Of a stretch of 26,240 nt of DNA, positions 4,903-20,649 are shown piece by piece; the stretch's first letter is position 1; every line of letters begins with the position of its first letter. Origin of the DNA: a virus; the IMG/VR virus record IMGVR_UViG_3300035661_000293, positions 1 to 26,240 of that record; one strand, 5' to 3'. Under the pieces are notes generated by a model, which ran no database searches, was not told the DNA's origin, and was given only the letters and a program-made list of their open reading frames with translations. Both the position numbers and the translations under genes were made by a program.

Positions 4903-5418
4903 TTATCCTAAACCTGTTGATCCAAAGCCACCAGTATTTCTATAGGTATTACTTAGTTCATCAACCACAACGAATGACGGATTTATAAAAGGCATAATCA
5001 TCAACTGAGCAATTCTATCTCCGTCTTCAATAATGAATATCTCGTTTCCGTCGTTCCTTAGTAAGACACAGATGTCTCCTCTATAGTCAGAGTCAATAAG
5101 ACCTGGACTATTTGGAATAGTAATGCCCTTCTTATAGGCAAGACCAGAACGGGGCATGATGAATGCACACACTTCTTCGGCTAACTCTAGTGACAGCCCA
5201 GTAGATACTAGGACCGTCTCGTTTGGATTGACCACAATGGGGTTAATCAGGTCAGCTCTTAGGTCAAACCCAGCTGATCCCTTAGTAGCCTTCTTGGGTA
5301 CTCCATGCTTTCCAGTACGGATCTTAACCATATTGGGAAAGTCATATTGAAATGAGTTGGCAACCAAGTTAACTGGATTAGCTACTGTCATTGTGTCAAC
5401 TTTATATTCGTTCTTCAT
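4903..5418 (-). CDS. dut: dUTPase (deoxyuridine 5'-triphosphate nucleotidohydrolase)
   Basis: The trimeric dUTPase hydrolyses dUTP to dUMP and pyrophosphate, keeping uracil out of DNA and supplying dUMP for thymidylate synthesis. All five family motifs are visible: GSAGFDLRAD, PRSGLAYKKG, GLIDSDYRGDI, DRIAQLMI and a C-terminal TGGFGSTG. I chose the ATG at 5418 because AGAGGA lies about 6 nt upstream. An ATG at 5457 that overlaps the exonuclease stop (ATGA) is the alternative. The 13 extra residues it would add (MTSSRRRNIEEQN) are coded by a 28-nt element also found upstream of the RNA polymerase gene, which argues that this stretch is regulatory. About 40 residues precede the conserved domain from the longer start. 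Confidence 0.93.
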   Translation of the reverse strand: MKNEYKVDTMTVANPVNLVANSFQYDFPNMVKIRTGKHGVPKKATKGSAGFDLRADLINPIVVNPNETVLVSTGLSLELAEEVCAFIMPRSGLAYKKGITIPNSPGLIDSDYRGDICVLLRNDGNEIFIIEDGDRIAQLMIMPFINPSFVVVDELSNTYRNTGGFGSTGLG

Positions 5419-13438: not shown

Positions 13439-13459
13439 AGTTACCTCCTTTCTTTTAAA

Positions 13460-13533
13460 CATTCCCGAGTGGACTTGAACCACTAACCTACAGCTTAGAA
13501 GGCTGTTGCTCTATCCAATTGAGCTACGGAAAT
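13460..13533 (-). tRNA. tRNA-Arg (anticodon UCU)
   Basis: This is a full cloverleaf on the minus strand. The 7-bp acceptor is ATTTCCG/CGGGAAT with one G-U pair. The D arm is GCTC/GAGC with AATTGGATA, the anticodon stem is ACAGC/GCTGT with loop CTTCTAA (anticodon TCT, reads AGA), and the T arm is AGTGG/CCACT with TTCAAGT. The 3' CCA is not encoded. Discriminator base is G. Confidence 0.93.
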
Positions 13534-13538
13534 ATGAA

Positions 13539-13611
13539 TGATTCCGATGGGACTTGAACCCATAACTAATGGATTAAAAGTCCACTACTCTACCAATTGA
13601 GTTACAGAATC
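13539..13611 (-). tRNA. tRNA-Lys (anticodon UUU)
   Basis: This is a full cloverleaf. The acceptor is GATTCTG/CGGAATC, the D stem ACTC/GAGT, the anticodon loop CTTTTAA (anticodon TTT, reads AAA), and the T arm ATGGG/CCCAT with loop TTCAAGT. Discriminator base is A. CCA is not encoded. It lies 5 nt from tRNA-Arg. Confidence 0.93.
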
Positions 13612-13615
13612 GTGA

Positions 13616-13688
13616 TGCCACACATGGGACTCGAACCCATACTATACAGATTTTAAGTCTGCTGACTCTGCCATTGGTCTACTGTGGC
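13616..13688 (-). tRNA. tRNA with anticodon UAA (Leu), short variable loop
   Basis: The acceptor is GCCACAG/GTGTGGC (six pairs plus a G-G at the seventh position). The anticodon stem GCAGA/TCTGT closes loop CTTAAAA, giving anticodon TAA for UUA, with T arm ATGGG/CCCAT and TTCGAGT. The variable loop is only 5 nt (ATAGT), whereas bacterial tRNA-Leu normally has a long variable arm. The D stem is three pairs. The discriminator A is as in tRNA-Leu. The gene is convincing; the charged amino acid is less certain. Confidence 0.85.
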
Positions 13689-13693
13689 TATAA

Positions 13694-13783
13694 TAGGCGG
13701 CATGGGAATCGAACCCATCTCGCGCGGCAATCTACCACTAAGTCTTATTATAAGTAAGATTGCATCCCAGATGCTAGCCGCCC
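13694..13783 (-). tRNA. tRNA-like gene, probable anticodon UAU (Ile, AUA), long variable region
   Basis: Acceptor GGGCGGC/GCCGCCT (last pair G-U) and T arm ATGGG/CCCAT with TTCGATT are clear. A perfect 5-bp stem TCTTA/TAAGA closes loop CTTATAA with normal C32, U33, A37 and A38, giving TAT. The D arm GCAT/ATGC has only 5 loop bases (CTGGG), and 24 nt lie between the anticodon and T arms, which can fold weakly (GGTA/TGCC). Long variable arms are normal for Leu, Ser and Tyr but not Ile. It may be functional, diverged or rearranged. Confidence 0.55.
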
Positions 13784-13788
13784 ATAAT

Positions 13789-15156: not shown

Positions 15157-15511
15157 TGTGTTCCTTCATTAATAGTTCGGACAGTTTATTAATCGTCTGT
15201 TCCATTGCTGTCTCCCATTGGTCAGACGGTGGTTTGATACTAAATCCTGCTGCGCTCTCAAGTTGAAACATAAAAAGATGAAGCAACTCATGAACCAAAG
15301 TATTTAAAGCATCGTAGTTCTCATACTTGGGGTTAAGAATCTTGATCGTTGACTCCATATGATTGGGATCAAACGTATTTATTCCGTATACCTTTTCTGT
15401 TTCTGTATTCAACTCGTCCTTCTTTGCCCACACAACGGTGATCTTCCAGTTGTGTAGTCCAAGAATCTTCTGCCACTTCTTGGATTCCTTTCTGAGTTGC
15501 TGAAGATTCAT
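15098..15511 (-). CDS. HELLH zincin-like putative metallopeptidase
   Basis: The 137-aa protein contains TLVHELLHLFMFQLES with HELLH at residues 74-78, the HExxH zinc-binding and catalytic motif. A second Glu in the helical region that follows (near residue 100 in QWETAMEQ) could be the third zinc ligand. The length and layout (short beta-rich N-terminus, then the zinc helix) resemble SprT-like or other minimal phage zincins. Substrate is unknown. It is coupled to the phosphoesterase by ATGA. The C-terminal 20 residues are low-complexity and overlap the next gene. Confidence 0.72.
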   Translation of the reverse strand: MNLQQLRKESKKWQKILGLHNWKITVVWAKKDELNTETEKVYGINTFDPNHMESTIKILNPKYENYDALNTLVHELLHLFMFQLESAAGFSIKPPSDQWETAMEQTINKLSELLMKEHNGRNTGSTDSGTNQDPQCQ

Positions 15512-16167
15512 AGGTCCATCAACTCCAAATAGGGGTGTCCATCAATAACCACAGCACATGATACGACTGGCTTCTTAAGGTAAGCAGAACCATACTGCAT
15601 AGCAGGGTGGAACCGATCAACACCTGATCCAACATTCATTCCGAAGATACGAGATGTTGGACCAACTACCCAATTGATACCAGCCACACTGTGATAGTGT
15701 CCCATCACTACTGATTGAAGACGAAGCTTTGCTGCATTCATTGCGGGGTATTGACCACCCGCACCAACACCGTGATAGTAATACACATCATCAATCTCTA
15801 CTGAGTATTGCCAATTCCAATTCTTGGAATCATACATAACACCATACTCTTTAAGATAGCATGGTGGAATACCAGCATCAGCCGCCAGTCTTGCAACACG
15901 TTCATCATGGTTACCAATAGTAACATGAGCAGTTGGGAATGCTCTGATCCATGATCCTAATGCATCCATAGTCTGATGATACTCATCCATTGCAGCAGGA
16001 TGTTCTGGATTCTTCTTGTGAAATGAGATGGATGCATGATCCACCACATCTCCAATGAACACAGTAGTATCAGTCTTGTACTTCTTCTTAATAGACTTAA
16101 CAAAGTCCATGTATTCTGGATGCACAGCAGGACAATGCAAGTCACCTATTACGAGAACTTTTGCCAT
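15508..16167 (-). CDS. Calcineurin-like metallophosphoesterase
   Basis: The 219-aa protein has all metal-binding motifs of the family: VIGDLHCP (D-x-H, about residue 8), FIGDVVDH (GDxxD, about 38), TIGNHDERV (GNHD/E, about 83), a His in YYYHGVGA (about 131) and VMGHYHSVA (GHxH, about 154). Targets of phage members range from nucleotides to RNA or DNA ends. Here it lies between RNA polymerase and SSB, so nucleic-acid or nucleotide metabolism is likely, without a defined substrate. AAGGAT precedes the start; the 80-aa gene overlaps the start by 26 nt. Confidence 0.87.
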   Translation of the reverse strand: MAKVLVIGDLHCPAVHPEYMDFVKSIKKKYKTDTTVFIGDVVDHASISFHKKNPEHPAAMDEYHQTMDALGSWIRAFPTAHVTIGNHDERVARLAADAGIPPCYLKEYGVMYDSKNWNWQYSVEIDDVYYYHGVGAGGQYPAMNAAKLRLQSVVMGHYHSVAGINWVVGPTSRIFGMNVGSGVDRFHPAMQYGSAYLKKPVVSCAVVIDGHPYLELMDL

Positions 16168-16384: not shown

Positions 16385-16583
16385 GGTCTACCTTCTTTAC
16401 TTTCTTTTGTTCAAGATATTTTATAACATGATTAATAAATTGTACGTGCATCCAATCAGATGTACATAGAAACTTAAAATTCATACGGGTTTTATTCTTA
16501 TCTTTCATTGCCTTGTAAATTATCTTAGCCCCGTTCTCTATAGCACCTTCACAATCAATCACAATAACTGGTGAATCAGTCAA
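16347..16583 (-). CDS. Small hypothetical protein (78 aa) after RNA polymerase
   Basis: This 78-aa protein begins MTDSPVIVIDCEGAIENGAK, suggesting a beta-strand, loop and helix start, and ends in a Lys-rich tail. Its ATG overlaps the RNA polymerase stop (ATGA), so it is translated as part of that unit. T7-like phages often have small host-takeover or polymerase-modulating genes here, but I see no motif linking it to one. Confidence 0.68.
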   Translation of the reverse strand: MTDSPVIVIDCEGAIENGAKIIYKAMKDKNKTRMNFKFLCTSDWMHVQFINHVIKYLEQKKVKKVDHVKLDIFIEEKN

Positions 16584-19051
16584 TGAAAGAAGTACTCACT
16601 CTCTAGCACCTTAGTTATGTCCAGAATACCAGTGCTAGGTACTTCGGGTAGATCAATCTCTAGATATGTAATCAATTGGTTCCGTAGTACATCGAGTTGA
16701 TTAACCGAATGTATCTTAACAAACTCTATACGTGTTACATCTCTTAACTTATCAACAAGCGGAGCATGAACACCAAATGAATCATGGATGAATGAATAAG
16801 AATCACACTCATCAGAGATTCCCATGATCACAGAAAACATATGGCTTGCATCTAATGAGTGGATAAAGTTAGGGGAGATTCCATTCTTAGCGGCTCTCCC
16901 GTTTACTTCGTCTCTGATAAACTCATTGAACTCAACACGCATCTTAGTAAGCAGACCCTGAAGATTAACAATCCCATTAGTCTGTCCATAGTATTGATGT
17001 CTTACCTTGAATCCAATTGGTGTTGTCCATTCAAGGTGAGTGTGTGTATCAGACGAAAGCTTTGCAATCTTCTTAAGCCATACCTTACCTTGGTTGGGTA
17101 TGGTAAGGAGAACATTCATTGCGTCTTGGATATACGATGTCAATTCCTTGGCAGCATTAATCCTGAGTGTCTTATCAATCCAATCTATATGCCCATCATT
17201 CAATAGACCATCGGTTATACCACGTGTGGTAACACCATATGGATCTGTCATGACTGCTCTCTTAACAACTGACCTGTTCACCTTGCCATCCCACTCCTCT
17301 AAGAACATGGTTACCCACGGATCCTTATAGTTAAGAGGAAGCATTGTTTGTGTGACTGCATTAGCAACGACACCATAGGCATCGTTAGGCTTATCATCTG
17401 GCAATAGGTTTACCATCTTACCAATGACAGGATCCTTAGCAATAGCAGCCCAATGTTGGATGCCATTACATGATCCATCCATACCGATGGGTAGTTGTGT
17501 CATACCATCTGTCCTAAACAACTCAAAGACAGCAGCTAAACGTTGAAAGGATTGGTTCTTCCTCTTTTTATCCTCAGTCCAAAGACTTAGGACAGCATAA
17601 GGATCATCGTTGATTGATTGTAACATCTTCATGTTAGCATCAACCCATTTGATTCTATTGTCAAAGGATTCCTTATCCTGATCAAACAGGTTTGCAACAT
17701 GTACCTTAAGCCAGTACTTACCACGTTCGGTTTGTTGTACTGGGTTAGCAAACGTAATCAAAGATCTATCATGATCACCAGACTGTGGTGATAACAGATC
17801 GGTAGTTGTGTATGCTCGACCGCGAAAGTCACAGGTATACACATGGTAGAAGAAGCCATAGGCATTCATATCCTTGGCTATTGAAAGCCTGAGACACATC
17901 CTAACTCTCTCATTCTCCTTGCCATACCACTCAGACCACAACTCTGATCGTTCTTTCTTTAGTCTACTAACTGTCTCTGGATTAGTATCATCTGACCTAT
18001 CCTGTAACAACAGCGAATCAATCTCATACGGTGGAAGATTAGCTACTCTAAGATTGTTCTTGAATAGATACTCCATTACATTAAGTACTGGAAGATTGAT
18101 TGTCCACTCAGTACCCATTAACTTATTCAGCCCATCAATCACAGCCTCAGATGGTTCACTACCCTTGAACTCAGTAACAAAATCTTCATCATGAAAGTAT
18201 GTATACCCTCTATCAACCATTCCCTTACGGAGATGTTCAGTATGAACACCACCAGATAGATCCTTGGTATGCTTACGGGGTGGTACAATCATTGGACGGT
18301 ATCTAATCTTAGCTCTAGTTAAGAAGTCAGAGTGTGCCTCAGTAAGTCCCGCAGTAACTTCACGTGAGAATGCTACTGCAATAGGACTAGATGTAGGACC
18401 ATCCCAAAACTTAGTAAGTTCAACTATACCTGATCGCTCAAGAATAGTTAACAGGTTAAGACCAAGATAGTATCGTTCTTTGTTGGTCATTCTAATATGA
18501 CACGGTGACTTGTGATACTTAATGAAGTCACTGATCTGTCTCTTAGTCCATCTAGATTTAATAATCTTAGATACAAGAACCCAAGCACCAGGATTATCTG
18601 CTCTTGACTGCTGATAATTAACTGCTGTCTGTATCACATTAGCAATTGCTCTTGCTAGATCTTGCTGTAGTACCTGAGTATTACTGACGGTAACACCATT
18701 GTGTTCTCGTCGTGAAGAGAACAACAATGTCTCAGCACACACAGTAATAATTAACCCAGCAATTCTACGAGGACCAAGACGATAGATCGGATTGATCCAA
18801 GGAACATTTCTTTTCTGTTGATCACATAGATATTGTTCTACTGCCTCAGAGATGTGATCAACAACACGATAGATGAGTGCCTGTTCAGGAGCATACATAC
18901 TAGGCATCGACTCATAATTATCCCAATATTTTTGGAGTGATTCATTAAAGATATCTTCCTCAAAGACTGAGTTAAGTGTTAGTCTGGTTTGTCTTTGTTC
19001 AAAGGACAGACCAAGCCATTTCTTTCCAGTACAGAAGTCAGATAAAGACAT
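16580..19051 (-). CDS. T7-like single-subunit RNA polymerase
   Basis: The 823-aa enzyme transcribes middle and late phage genes from its own promoters. Polymerase motifs are in order: DFRGRAYTTTDLLSPQSGD near residue 410, GMDGSCNGIQHWAAI (catalytic Asp) near 522, RSVVKRAVMTDPYGVTTRGI (Arg, Lys and Tyr of the O helix) near 592-611, NFIHSLDASHMFSVI near 732, IHDSFGVHA (second catalytic Asp) near 754, and a C-terminal aromatic tail EYFFH. Size is near T7 gp1 (883 aa) but shorter, mainly N-terminal to the palm. AAGGAGAAATCAAT precedes the ATG. It separates the early region from replication genes, as in T7. One copy of the 28-nt element lies about 50 nt before it. Confidence 0.96.
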   Translation of the reverse strand: MSLSDFCTGKKWLGLSFEQRQTRLTLNSVFEEDIFNESLQKYWDNYESMPSMYAPEQALIYRVVDHISEAVEQYLCDQQKRNVPWINPIYRLGPRRIAGLIITVCAETLLFSSRREHNGVTVSNTQVLQQDLARAIANVIQTAVNYQQSRADNPGAWVLVSKIIKSRWTKRQISDFIKYHKSPCHIRMTNKERYYLGLNLLTILERSGIVELTKFWDGPTSSPIAVAFSREVTAGLTEAHSDFLTRAKIRYRPMIVPPRKHTKDLSGGVHTEHLRKGMVDRGYTYFHDEDFVTEFKGSEPSEAVIDGLNKLMGTEWTINLPVLNVMEYLFKNNLRVANLPPYEIDSLLLQDRSDDTNPETVSRLKKERSELWSEWYGKENERVRMCLRLSIAKDMNAYGFFYHVYTCDFRGRAYTTTDLLSPQSGDHDRSLITFANPVQQTERGKYWLKVHVANLFDQDKESFDNRIKWVDANMKMLQSINDDPYAVLSLWTEDKKRKNQSFQRLAAVFELFRTDGMTQLPIGMDGSCNGIQHWAAIAKDPVIGKMVNLLPDDKPNDAYGVVANAVTQTMLPLNYKDPWVTMFLEEWDGKVNRSVVKRAVMTDPYGVTTRGITDGLLNDGHIDWIDKTLRINAAKELTSYIQDAMNVLLTIPNQGKVWLKKIAKLSSDTHTHLEWTTPIGFKVRHQYYGQTNGIVNLQGLLTKMRVEFNEFIRDEVNGRAAKNGISPNFIHSLDASHMFSVIMGISDECDSYSFIHDSFGVHAPLVDKLRDVTRIEFVKIHSVNQLDVLRNQLITYLEIDLPEVPSTGILDITKVLESEYFFH

Positions 19052-19124: not shown

Positions 19125-19266
19125 CTACCACAATATTTTCATCATCATCAACAGGTTCATCAAGATATACTTCATTGTACCAGTAATCAGGACAATGATA
19201 CTCATCAATGAAGTTAACCCAATCATAACCATCCATATCATCTACATTACCATCTTCATAACTCAT
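19102..19266 (-). CDS. Very acidic small protein (54 aa)
   Basis: This 54-codon frame begins MSYEDGNVDDMDGYDWVNFI; nearly 40% of residues are Asp or Glu, with many Tyr and Trp. Its start overlaps the 79-aa gene stop (TAATG). Acidic, DNA-mimic-like small proteins in T7-like early regions include Ocr-type anti-restriction proteins and host RNA polymerase inhibitors; the composition fits such ideas, but no homology is seen. It is the last early gene before the phage RNA polymerase. Confidence 0.65.
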   Translation of the reverse strand: MSYEDGNVDDMDGYDWVNFIDEYHCPDYWYNEVYLDEPVDDDENIVVDDEQQET

Positions 19267-19505
19267 TAATAAACTCCCGTGTTATCGTGGTCAATAACTT
19301 TCTTAACCTTAAGAGACTCATCAAGGATATGATGCAACAGAGCAGCAACACCCATCAACTTTTCATAATCATTATCAGACCACACAGGTCCACGCTTATG
19401 CTTGGCATCAAAAGCCAAGTCATACACAAGATGTGCCTGAAGAAGAAGAATTTTCTTATCAAATCTAGCATCAATCTCATAAACATTTGAAATTTCTTCA
19501 CCCAT
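19266..19505 (-). CDS. Small hypothetical helical protein (79 aa)
   Basis: This 79-aa protein begins MGEEISNVYEIDARFDKKIL and is largely helical with repeated Leu/His stretches (LLQAHLVYDLAF, GVAALLHHILDESLK). There is no signal peptide or membrane segment. It starts 2 nt after the cohesin/dockerin gene and overlaps the acidic 54-aa gene. No family is recognised. Confidence 0.7.
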   Translation of the reverse strand: MGEEISNVYEIDARFDKKILLLQAHLVYDLAFDAKHKRGPVWSDNDYEKLMGVAALLHHILDESLKVKKVIDHDNTGVY

Positions 19506-19507
19506 TA

Positions 19508-20227
19508 TTAGCTCCAGTTATTAAACAGTAGTGCAAGATCTTGTGAGTTCACAATGCCATCACCATTAAGATCATGCGGATTAGATGCATAGTTAATAGC
19601 ACCCCAGTCAGCAAGCAACGCACTCATATCACCAGCATTTACAATACCATCATTATTAAAGTCACCAAACACAGGGACTCCAACCATAGCATTACTAAGT
19701 GTACCAGTAACATCATTACCACCAACACAACAACCATACACAACACAGGAAGCAGGATACTCAGGTCGAAGTGGTAGGTTATCATATAACACAACCTCTG
19801 ATTGACCCAACCCAACAACCTTAAAGATAAACTTACACATCTGTGTTGGCTTAGTTACAATCCACTCGTATCCAAGCACACCATAGCAATAGAACATACC
19901 GTTGCCATCTTGTGGTGGTACGACTTCATTGCACCAAGTATAATCATTAGGTGGGAATGTAGAATACCCTGGCATAACACCAACATTAGAACCTTCCAAT
20001 GATACACCAAGCAACTGCAACTTACTAGTATCCCAACCAAAGGGAACATCAGCAACAATGAATCGCTGAGGATTACTAGAGGCAGACACCATCAACTTAA
20101 CTTCAATGATATCATTGATATCAACAGCCTGTTGTGGGAACACAAGTGATAGATCCAACTTAGCATTAGGGTCTGACTGTGCATGACACACACTAGACAT
20201 CAAAAGGATTGGATAGATATATTTCAC
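19508..20227 (-). CDS. Predicted secreted protein with cohesin-like domain and C-terminal type I dockerin
   Basis: The 239-aa protein begins with a short signal peptide (MKYIYPILLMSSVCHA, likely cut before QSD), so export is expected. Residues about 22-160 resemble a cohesin-type beta-sandwich: IIEVKLMVSAS, VPFGWDTSKLQLLGVSLEG and CKFIFKVVGLGQSEVVLYD mirror the strand pattern of cohesins. Residues 187-239 are a dockerin with two EF-hand-like calcium loops: GDFNNDGIVNAGD (D189, N191, D193, N197, D200) and HDLNGDGIVNSQD (D219, N221, D223, N227, D230), each followed by a LLxxW-type helix. Cys residues at 99, 114, 131, 161, 166 and 167 could form disulfides after export. It is coupled to the 141-aa gene by ATGA, so it is an ordinary member of the early operon, not an insertion. 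The loop style resembles Planctomycetota dockerins. Its function is unknown. Confidence 0.85.
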   Translation of the reverse strand: MKYIYPILLMSSVCHAQSDPNAKLDLSLVFPQQAVDINDIIEVKLMVSASSNPQRFIVADVPFGWDTSKLQLLGVSLEGSNVGVMPGYSTFPPNDYTWCNEVVPPQDGNGMFYCYGVLGYEWIVTKPTQMCKFIFKVVGLGQSEVVLYDNLPLRPEYPASCVVYGCCVGGNDVTGTLSNAMVGVPVFGDFNNDGIVNAGDMSALLADWGAINYASNPHDLNGDGIVNSQDLALLFNNWS

Positions 20228-20649
20228 TCAGTTACCTTAGACTTGATAAGGTATAGGATAGCATCAGCAATGGCAATAGTGCCATCCTTACTCTTAAAGA
20301 AATCAGTCATTGCCTGATCAATGTTATCCGATACAGCAGACTCAATCTTATAGTCTACCTTATCTTCAATAATATTATCCAGCTTATCATCAACCACACT
20401 CTCTAGTTGATCGTTAACAAACTGTTCGACAAGATCAGATACATTGTCATCACAGTATGCATTAATCTCACGATCCATGTTAACATAATCTTCCATGATA
20501 AACTCATTACACATATACTGTGTAACCTTATCCTCAAGGAAGGCTTGAAGTTTAGAAACATCCATCAAGTTAGGATCTGCAACAGACTTGTTAAGCAGAA
20601 CAAACTCACGCATTACATCACACAACTTCGTATCAATTTCATTAGTCAT
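20224..20649 (-). CDS. Acidic helical hypothetical protein (141 aa)
   Basis: This 141-aa protein is acidic and almost wholly helical. The second half has a quasi-repeat of DxLxxxxxDKV/DxIxxxV units (VVDDKLDNIIEDKVDYKIES), suggesting a long coiled coil. There is no membrane segment or signal. Phage proteins with such repetitive DKVxxxI helices often serve as small oligomeric or scaffold-like factors, but no family is assigned. It overlaps the upstream 115-aa gene by 8 nt and is coupled to the secreted dockerin gene. Confidence 0.7.
   Translation of the reverse strand: MTNEIDTKLCDVMREFVLLNKSVADPNLMDVSKLQAFLEDKVTQYMCNEFIMEDYVNMDREINAYCDDNVSDLVEQFVNDQLESVVDDKLDNIIEDKVDYKIESAVSDNIDQAMTDFFKSKDGTIAIADAILYLIKSKVTE

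Follow-up and report, generated by a model that had tools for sequence, protein, structure and literature searches.

The gene at 19508..20227 raises the question of what use a phage would have for a protein that carries a cohesin-like domain and a dockerin-like domain behind a predicted signal peptide. The window, meaning the whole stretch of DNA that was analyzed, is a 26,240-base IMG/VR record with the gene content of a T7-like phage: Pfam and PHROG searches identified an RNA polymerase, a helicase-primase, a DNA polymerase A, a 5'-3' exonuclease, a head-tail connector, a B12-type RNR and ThyX. Its RNA polymerase is less than 60% identical to every one of 50,697 phage records, and the best-covering records are approximately 27% identical. 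No homologue of the cohesin–dockerin protein was found in INPHARED phages or PHROGs and, in keeping with the earlier note, whose author knew of no comparable phage system, none of this type is described in PHROGs, INPHARED or the literature searched.

The gene and its surroundings

The features of the locus on which the analysis draws are as follows.

16580..19051, minus strand: T7-type single-subunit RNA polymerase (Pfam PF00940, E 1.7e-82; PHROG 414)
19266..19505, minus strand: small downstream gene, 79 aa, conserved in sister phages without a dockerin gene here
19508..20227, minus strand: gene for the cohesin–dockerin protein, 239 aa (open reading frame; homologues; dN/dS)
19520..19666, minus strand: type I dockerin-like domain, residues 188-236 (Pfam PF00404; PDB dockerins; two modelled helices)
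19538..19573, minus strand: calcium loop 2, DLNGDGIVNSQD, residues 219-230, complete
19628..19663, minus strand: calcium loop 1, DFNNDGIVNAGD, residues 189-200, complete
19682..20164, minus strand: cohesin-like beta-sandwich, residues 22-182 (AlphaFold2; Foldseek match to PDB 6kgc_A, E 2.4e-7, TMt 0.75)
20180..20227, minus strand: predicted Sec signal peptide, residues 1-16, cleavage CHA/QS (by inspection and alignment of relatives; low model confidence)
20224..20227, minus strand: start of the cohesin–dockerin gene overlaps the upstream stop by 4 nt, GTGA (translational coupling)
20224..20649, minus strand: coupled upstream gene, 141 aa, uncharacterized (homologue in L014)

The reading frame runs on the minus strand from a GTG start codon at 20227 to a stop at 19508, and the overlap of its start with the upstream stop bears out the translational coupling that had been claimed for it. 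It lies 0.5 kb upstream of the RNA polymerase gene and far from the virion genes of the window, a position that, by analogy with the T7 genes upstream of RNA polymerase, would place it in the early region. The base composition of the gene is that of the phage's own genes.

A predicted cohesin fold joined to a dockerin-like domain

The domain structure was established computationally. The protein begins with MKYIYPILLMSSVCHA followed by QSDP, by inspection a short, ordinary Sec-type signal peptide, and close relatives have longer, textbook signal peptides (aligned form MKLQQYIKSFFVFLVCLTSMASA followed by Q); the signal peptide reported earlier is retained. An AlphaFold2 model built from 18 homologues (pLDDT 84.9) indicates that the following region adopts a cohesin-type beta-sandwich fold, since all of the best 50 PDB fold matches listed by Foldseek (best E 2.4e-7) are cohesins or cohesin-containing complexes. 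The Pfam Cohesin family (PF00963) does not match the window protein, and the homologous domain of L014 and L015 scores above its cut-off.

A type I dockerin consists of two duplicated calcium loops of the form D-x-N-x-D-G-x-x-x-x-x-D, each followed by a helix. Both loops of the window protein are complete, at exactly the residues first described, and helices are modelled at residues 198-206 and 228-236. Pfam Dockerin_1 (PF00404) matches with an E value of 2.7e-8 (34.3 bits against a cut-off of 22.9) and solved PDB dockerins match at E 1e-4. A chance motif was considered and was ruled out by the Pfam match, the fold and the 20-odd homologous viral loci. No enzyme domain was found in the window protein, nor did Pfam match an HYR domain in it, and the modelled layout, in which a single non-catalytic chain carries both cohesin and dockerin, is the one seen in adaptor scaffoldins. 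The earlier note had proposed structure prediction as a check, to be decided by the absence of a cohesin- or dockerin-like fold; the model contains both.

Relatives in other phages

In IMG/VR, scans detected 22 loci in viruses, among them G001, whose protein is identical to that of the window. The cohesin–dockerin relatives lie on approximately 20 further viral contigs that represent at least five phage backbones, and they occupy different loci. A separate scan with the RNA polymerase returned four contigs besides the near-identical G001, two of which (L016 and L017) are also among the 22 loci, and a cohesin-family gene was present in all five contigs found in this way (G001 included). In L014 (11726-12871) and L015 (17333-18673), a longer signal-peptide protein without a dockerin lies between the helicase and polymerase genes; its C-terminal half is a Pfam cohesin and its first half resembles a second cohesin-like domain.

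The location of the gene varies. It is early in the window and G001, lies between the helicase and polymerase genes in G015, G016, L020 and L026, and between the portal and scaffold/major-head genes, by the adhesin-like genes c53 and c36, in G005, G017 and G022. Its neighbors in G003, G010 and L023 are RNR/ThyX and a gene for a secreted beta-barrel, and in G004 it is found where a 90-kb contig ends. The assignment to an early operon therefore holds for the window locus but not for relatives in the middle region (helicase/DNA polymerase) or in the late virion cluster. Secreted outer-membrane beta-barrel genes were located at L037:8506-9318 (G003), L063:6155-6967 (G010), L023:3050-3844 and L045:12804-13607 (G019); they adjoin the cohesin–dockerin gene in the first three and lie approximately 6 kb from it in G019. 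The beta-barrel protein matches Pfam Opacity in L023 and, by AlphaFold and Foldseek, FapF and COG4313 channels, which suggests that this neighborhood is a surface-modification module. An endonuclease gene (PHROG 452, staphylococcal-nuclease-like) lies directly beside the cohesin–dockerin gene at L037:7275-7658 (G003), G002 15321-15710 and G010 4925-5308. A phage tmRNA with the tag ANTQYRLAA is predicted at L048:16332-16663 (G002), and another, which is doubtful, in L045 (G019).

The signal peptide is also variable. It is present at 10 or more loci, the window among them, and the proteins of L016, L017, L020, L024, L025, L026 and L028 begin at the mature domain; upstream room for a signal peptide is absent where checked (L017 and L024/L025). 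The mature part contains 5-6 cysteines in the exported core clade versus 0-3 in the proteins lacking a signal peptide. A single clade of signal-peptide-less forms was marginally rejected (p 0.048), and for a single clade of signal-peptide forms rejection was not reached (p 0.09). Export, as first proposed, is thus consistent with the signal peptide of the window protein but does not extend to several of its relatives. Since relatives occupy middle and late loci and several have no signal peptide, neither "early" nor "exported" defines the family.

Selection and probable exchange between phages

The dN/dS values among relatives range from 0.05 to 0.23, showing purifying selection on the gene. 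A tree of the cohesin domain splits into one group of 20 viral rows and another of 22 cellular rows (99/96), and the window falls within a 10-row clade (100/100) drawn from unrelated backbones. Identity between close copies is 72-79%, and these occur on contigs as long as 90 kb, other shared genes being at most about 52% identical, and the sisters of the window by polymerase carry distant copies at another locus. These comparisons suggest that the gene has been exchanged between phages; because synonymous sites are saturated between the window and the others, the exchange was not very recent. A recent host capture in decay was ruled out by dN/dS, base composition and spread. The homologue search that the earlier note had also proposed thus returned a gene that is conserved across phages, is spread over unrelated ones and is not decaying.

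Cellular relatives and the candidate host

A scan of genome contigs found relatives in five planctomycete-type MAGs, and a search with the cohesin domain alone matched 13 of the 101 genomes from a single planctomycete family versus three of 343 sampled from the phylum Planctomycetota as a whole. Most cellular relatives have the order signal peptide–cohesin–dockerin, so that host-side homologues have the same architecture as the phage protein. Within that family, six of seven tested genomes encode 1-5 Pfam cohesins and seven of eight encode 26-73 Pfam dockerins, and cohesin, HYR and dockerin-like motifs are combined in the proteins L095 and L096. The pairs at the recognition positions of the phage dockerins are mostly AQ/SQ (AG/SQ in the window); in one genome of the family, the 39 repeats of 20 dockerins include AQ seven times, SQ twice and AG once. 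The earlier suggestion of a Planctomycetota-like dockerin is supported. In L033 and L086, a PEP-CTERM-like tail stands where related cellular cohesin proteins carry a dockerin, as if the two were interchangeable surface-sorting devices.

A planctosome has been proposed, as a hypothesis, for the freshwater Nemodlikiaceae/CL500-3 of the Phycisphaerae; its adaptor has a signal peptide, dockerin, HYR and cohesin, and Zn-peptidases are proposed to be docked by their dockerins (PMC6461901). The cohesin and dockerin content of the family matches this hypothetical complex, and we infer that the family is Nemodlikiaceae or close to it.

No CRISPR or DNA link to a host was found when the window DNA was compared with 181 genomes of this candidate family: one half of the window gave tRNA matches, which do not discriminate hosts, and the second half gave zero matches. 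Two DNA matches were rejected as a host link because they encode unrelated FG-GAP/VCBS-type calcium loops, and a 27-bp stretch matched in two genomes was rejected as a CRISPR link because no CRISPR array surrounds it. The GC content of the phages is mostly 37-49% and that of the DNA around the nearest cellular homologues 60-70%; other members of the family have regions of 42-52% GC. The window has a four-tRNA cluster at 13459-13784 (Ile-TAT, Leu-TAA, Lys-TTT and Arg-TCT), and similar tRNA sets occur in G005, G015, G016 and G017. The AT-codon tRNAs were dropped as a sign of a high-GC host because of the 42-52% GC regions in the family.

Comparison with known systems

Among characterized proteins, the layout recalls ScaC, an adaptor scaffoldin of Ruminococcus flavefaciens, whose dockerin plugs into another scaffoldin and whose cohesin recruits other dockerins (PMC5429695). 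The phage protein likewise has both domains in one chain but is phage-encoded, its binding is putative, and it would presumably act on an outer-membrane-bearing planctomycete. It looks like a stripped-down planctosome adaptor (PMC6461901), sharing the signal peptide, dockerin and cohesin, but is carried by a phage and, at 239 aa, does not reach the length of the cellular cohesin–HYR proteins found here; because it lacks the HYR domain, we do not file it as a planctosome adaptor but only as one that would work like it. The cellular proteins L029 and L081-L084 share its domain order and are of similar size (cohesin domain 33-37% identical for those aligned), although viral copies group apart from all cellular rows. 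The phage protein A0A6J5M064, a BFVD match, has a partly similar beta-sandwich and an annotated host-type surface-sorting tail; however, it is 636 aa long, carries a "Secretion system C-terminal sorting domain" instead of a dockerin, and the structural match is weak. A functional analogy only, proposed here, is with Llp of phage T5, a small lipoprotein that acts from the periplasm by binding an outer-membrane transporter and causes superinfection exclusion (PMC9586334): both would be exported phage proteins that alter a host surface component and block adsorption, but the two are unrelated.

Possible roles during infection

The reading that we favor, tentatively, is that the protein is a phage mini-adaptor that plugs into, caps or rewires a cohesin–dockerin network on the host surface, most likely changing adsorption. 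The host, binding partners, export and adsorption benefit that we infer are as follows. A planctomycete host would have been the source of a miniature adaptor-scaffoldin gene; infected cells would export its product via Sec; the phage dockerin would dock onto surface or periplasmic cohesins of the host and the phage cohesin would occupy host dockerin proteins, so that a planctosome-like surface complex would be capped or rewired during phage replication. With many dockerins and few cohesins in the host, a monovalent adaptor could cap the scarce cohesins and tie up dockerin proteins. The likeliest benefit would be an altered surface that keeps additional phages, the released progeny among them, from adsorbing to infected cells and debris. 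The beta-barrel neighbor in G003, G010 and L023, and at approximately 6 kb in G019, favors surface remodelling, with altered adsorption as its likeliest benefit. Superinfection-exclusion genes are commonly expressed early (PMC9586334), and the late location among virion genes in G005, G017 and G022 is odd for such a function; late copies and those without a signal peptide fit surface remodelling less well. The surface attachment first suggested for this protein retains its logic for a cohesin and dockerin on a predicted exported chain, but export is not general among the relatives. The block of re-infection that the earlier note also raised is putative. A wider version, possible though we hold it with less assurance, is that unrelated Planctomycetota phages exchange a mini-scaffoldin that disarms or re-plugs the planctosome, with the signal peptide gained or lost repeatedly to give both exported forms and intracellular forms released by lysis.

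The late and signal-peptide-less copies would be better accommodated if the protein were a virion-linked adhesin, particle-borne or released at lysis, whose dockerin docks onto host cohesins and aids adsorption while its cohesin links to the particle or to itself. The position between the portal and scaffold/major-head genes near c53 and c36 agrees with this, as do the cysteine counts, which are those expected of cytoplasmic versus exported proteins. Nevertheless, we regard it as rather unlikely, given the signal peptides at 10 or more loci including the window, the early position of the window gene far from the virion genes, the outer-membrane protein gene adjoining the copy in G003 and G010, and the absence of the dockerin motif, with the pattern used, from every other protein of these phages. 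That the protein is instead an auxiliary metabolic gene product, an extra adaptor that keeps a host surface peptidase complex working and amino acids flowing in, is distinctly unlikely. Polypeptide degradation is the hypothesized function of the planctosome, and auxotrophy for several amino acids is reported for its hosts (PMC6461901), and the phages carry other supply genes (RNR, ThyX and tRNA); however, the protein has neither an enzyme nor a substrate-binding HYR domain, a monovalent adaptor would as likely compete as help, and the benefit within one lytic cycle is uncertain.

The anatomy that underlies the favored reading would serve equally for protection, by displacing or blocking host dockerin-borne M12B/M14 peptidases that would otherwise degrade virions or envelope-exposed phage proteins. 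The hosts are proposed to display Zn-peptidases via dockerins (PMC6461901), but harm to virions from these peptidases would have to be assumed, and this role is quite improbable. Finally, the identity of the architecture with that of host proteins might reflect a host surface gene captured by chance and carried passively. This is strongly disfavored, with a very small probability, by the purifying selection, the phage-like base composition, the single viral group, the spread across backbones and the cohesin-family gene in all five contigs found by RNA polymerase.

Implications for phages and planctomycete surfaces

To our knowledge, it is mainly from genome predictions that cohesin–dockerin complexes with no part in cellulose degradation are known. 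Were phages to encode competitors of such complexes, the complexes would be exposed, functional and relevant to infection. Should the favored reading be correct, cohesin–dockerin plugging would join the ways in which phages alter the host surface, and engineered assemblies of cohesins and dockerins could draw on the protein as a small, natural adaptor. If the planctosome is indeed disarmed in this way, the gene would represent a phage counter-measure against a cellulosome-like complex. More broadly, the phage protein would provide a handle on surface assembly in abundant uncultured freshwater Planctomycetota.
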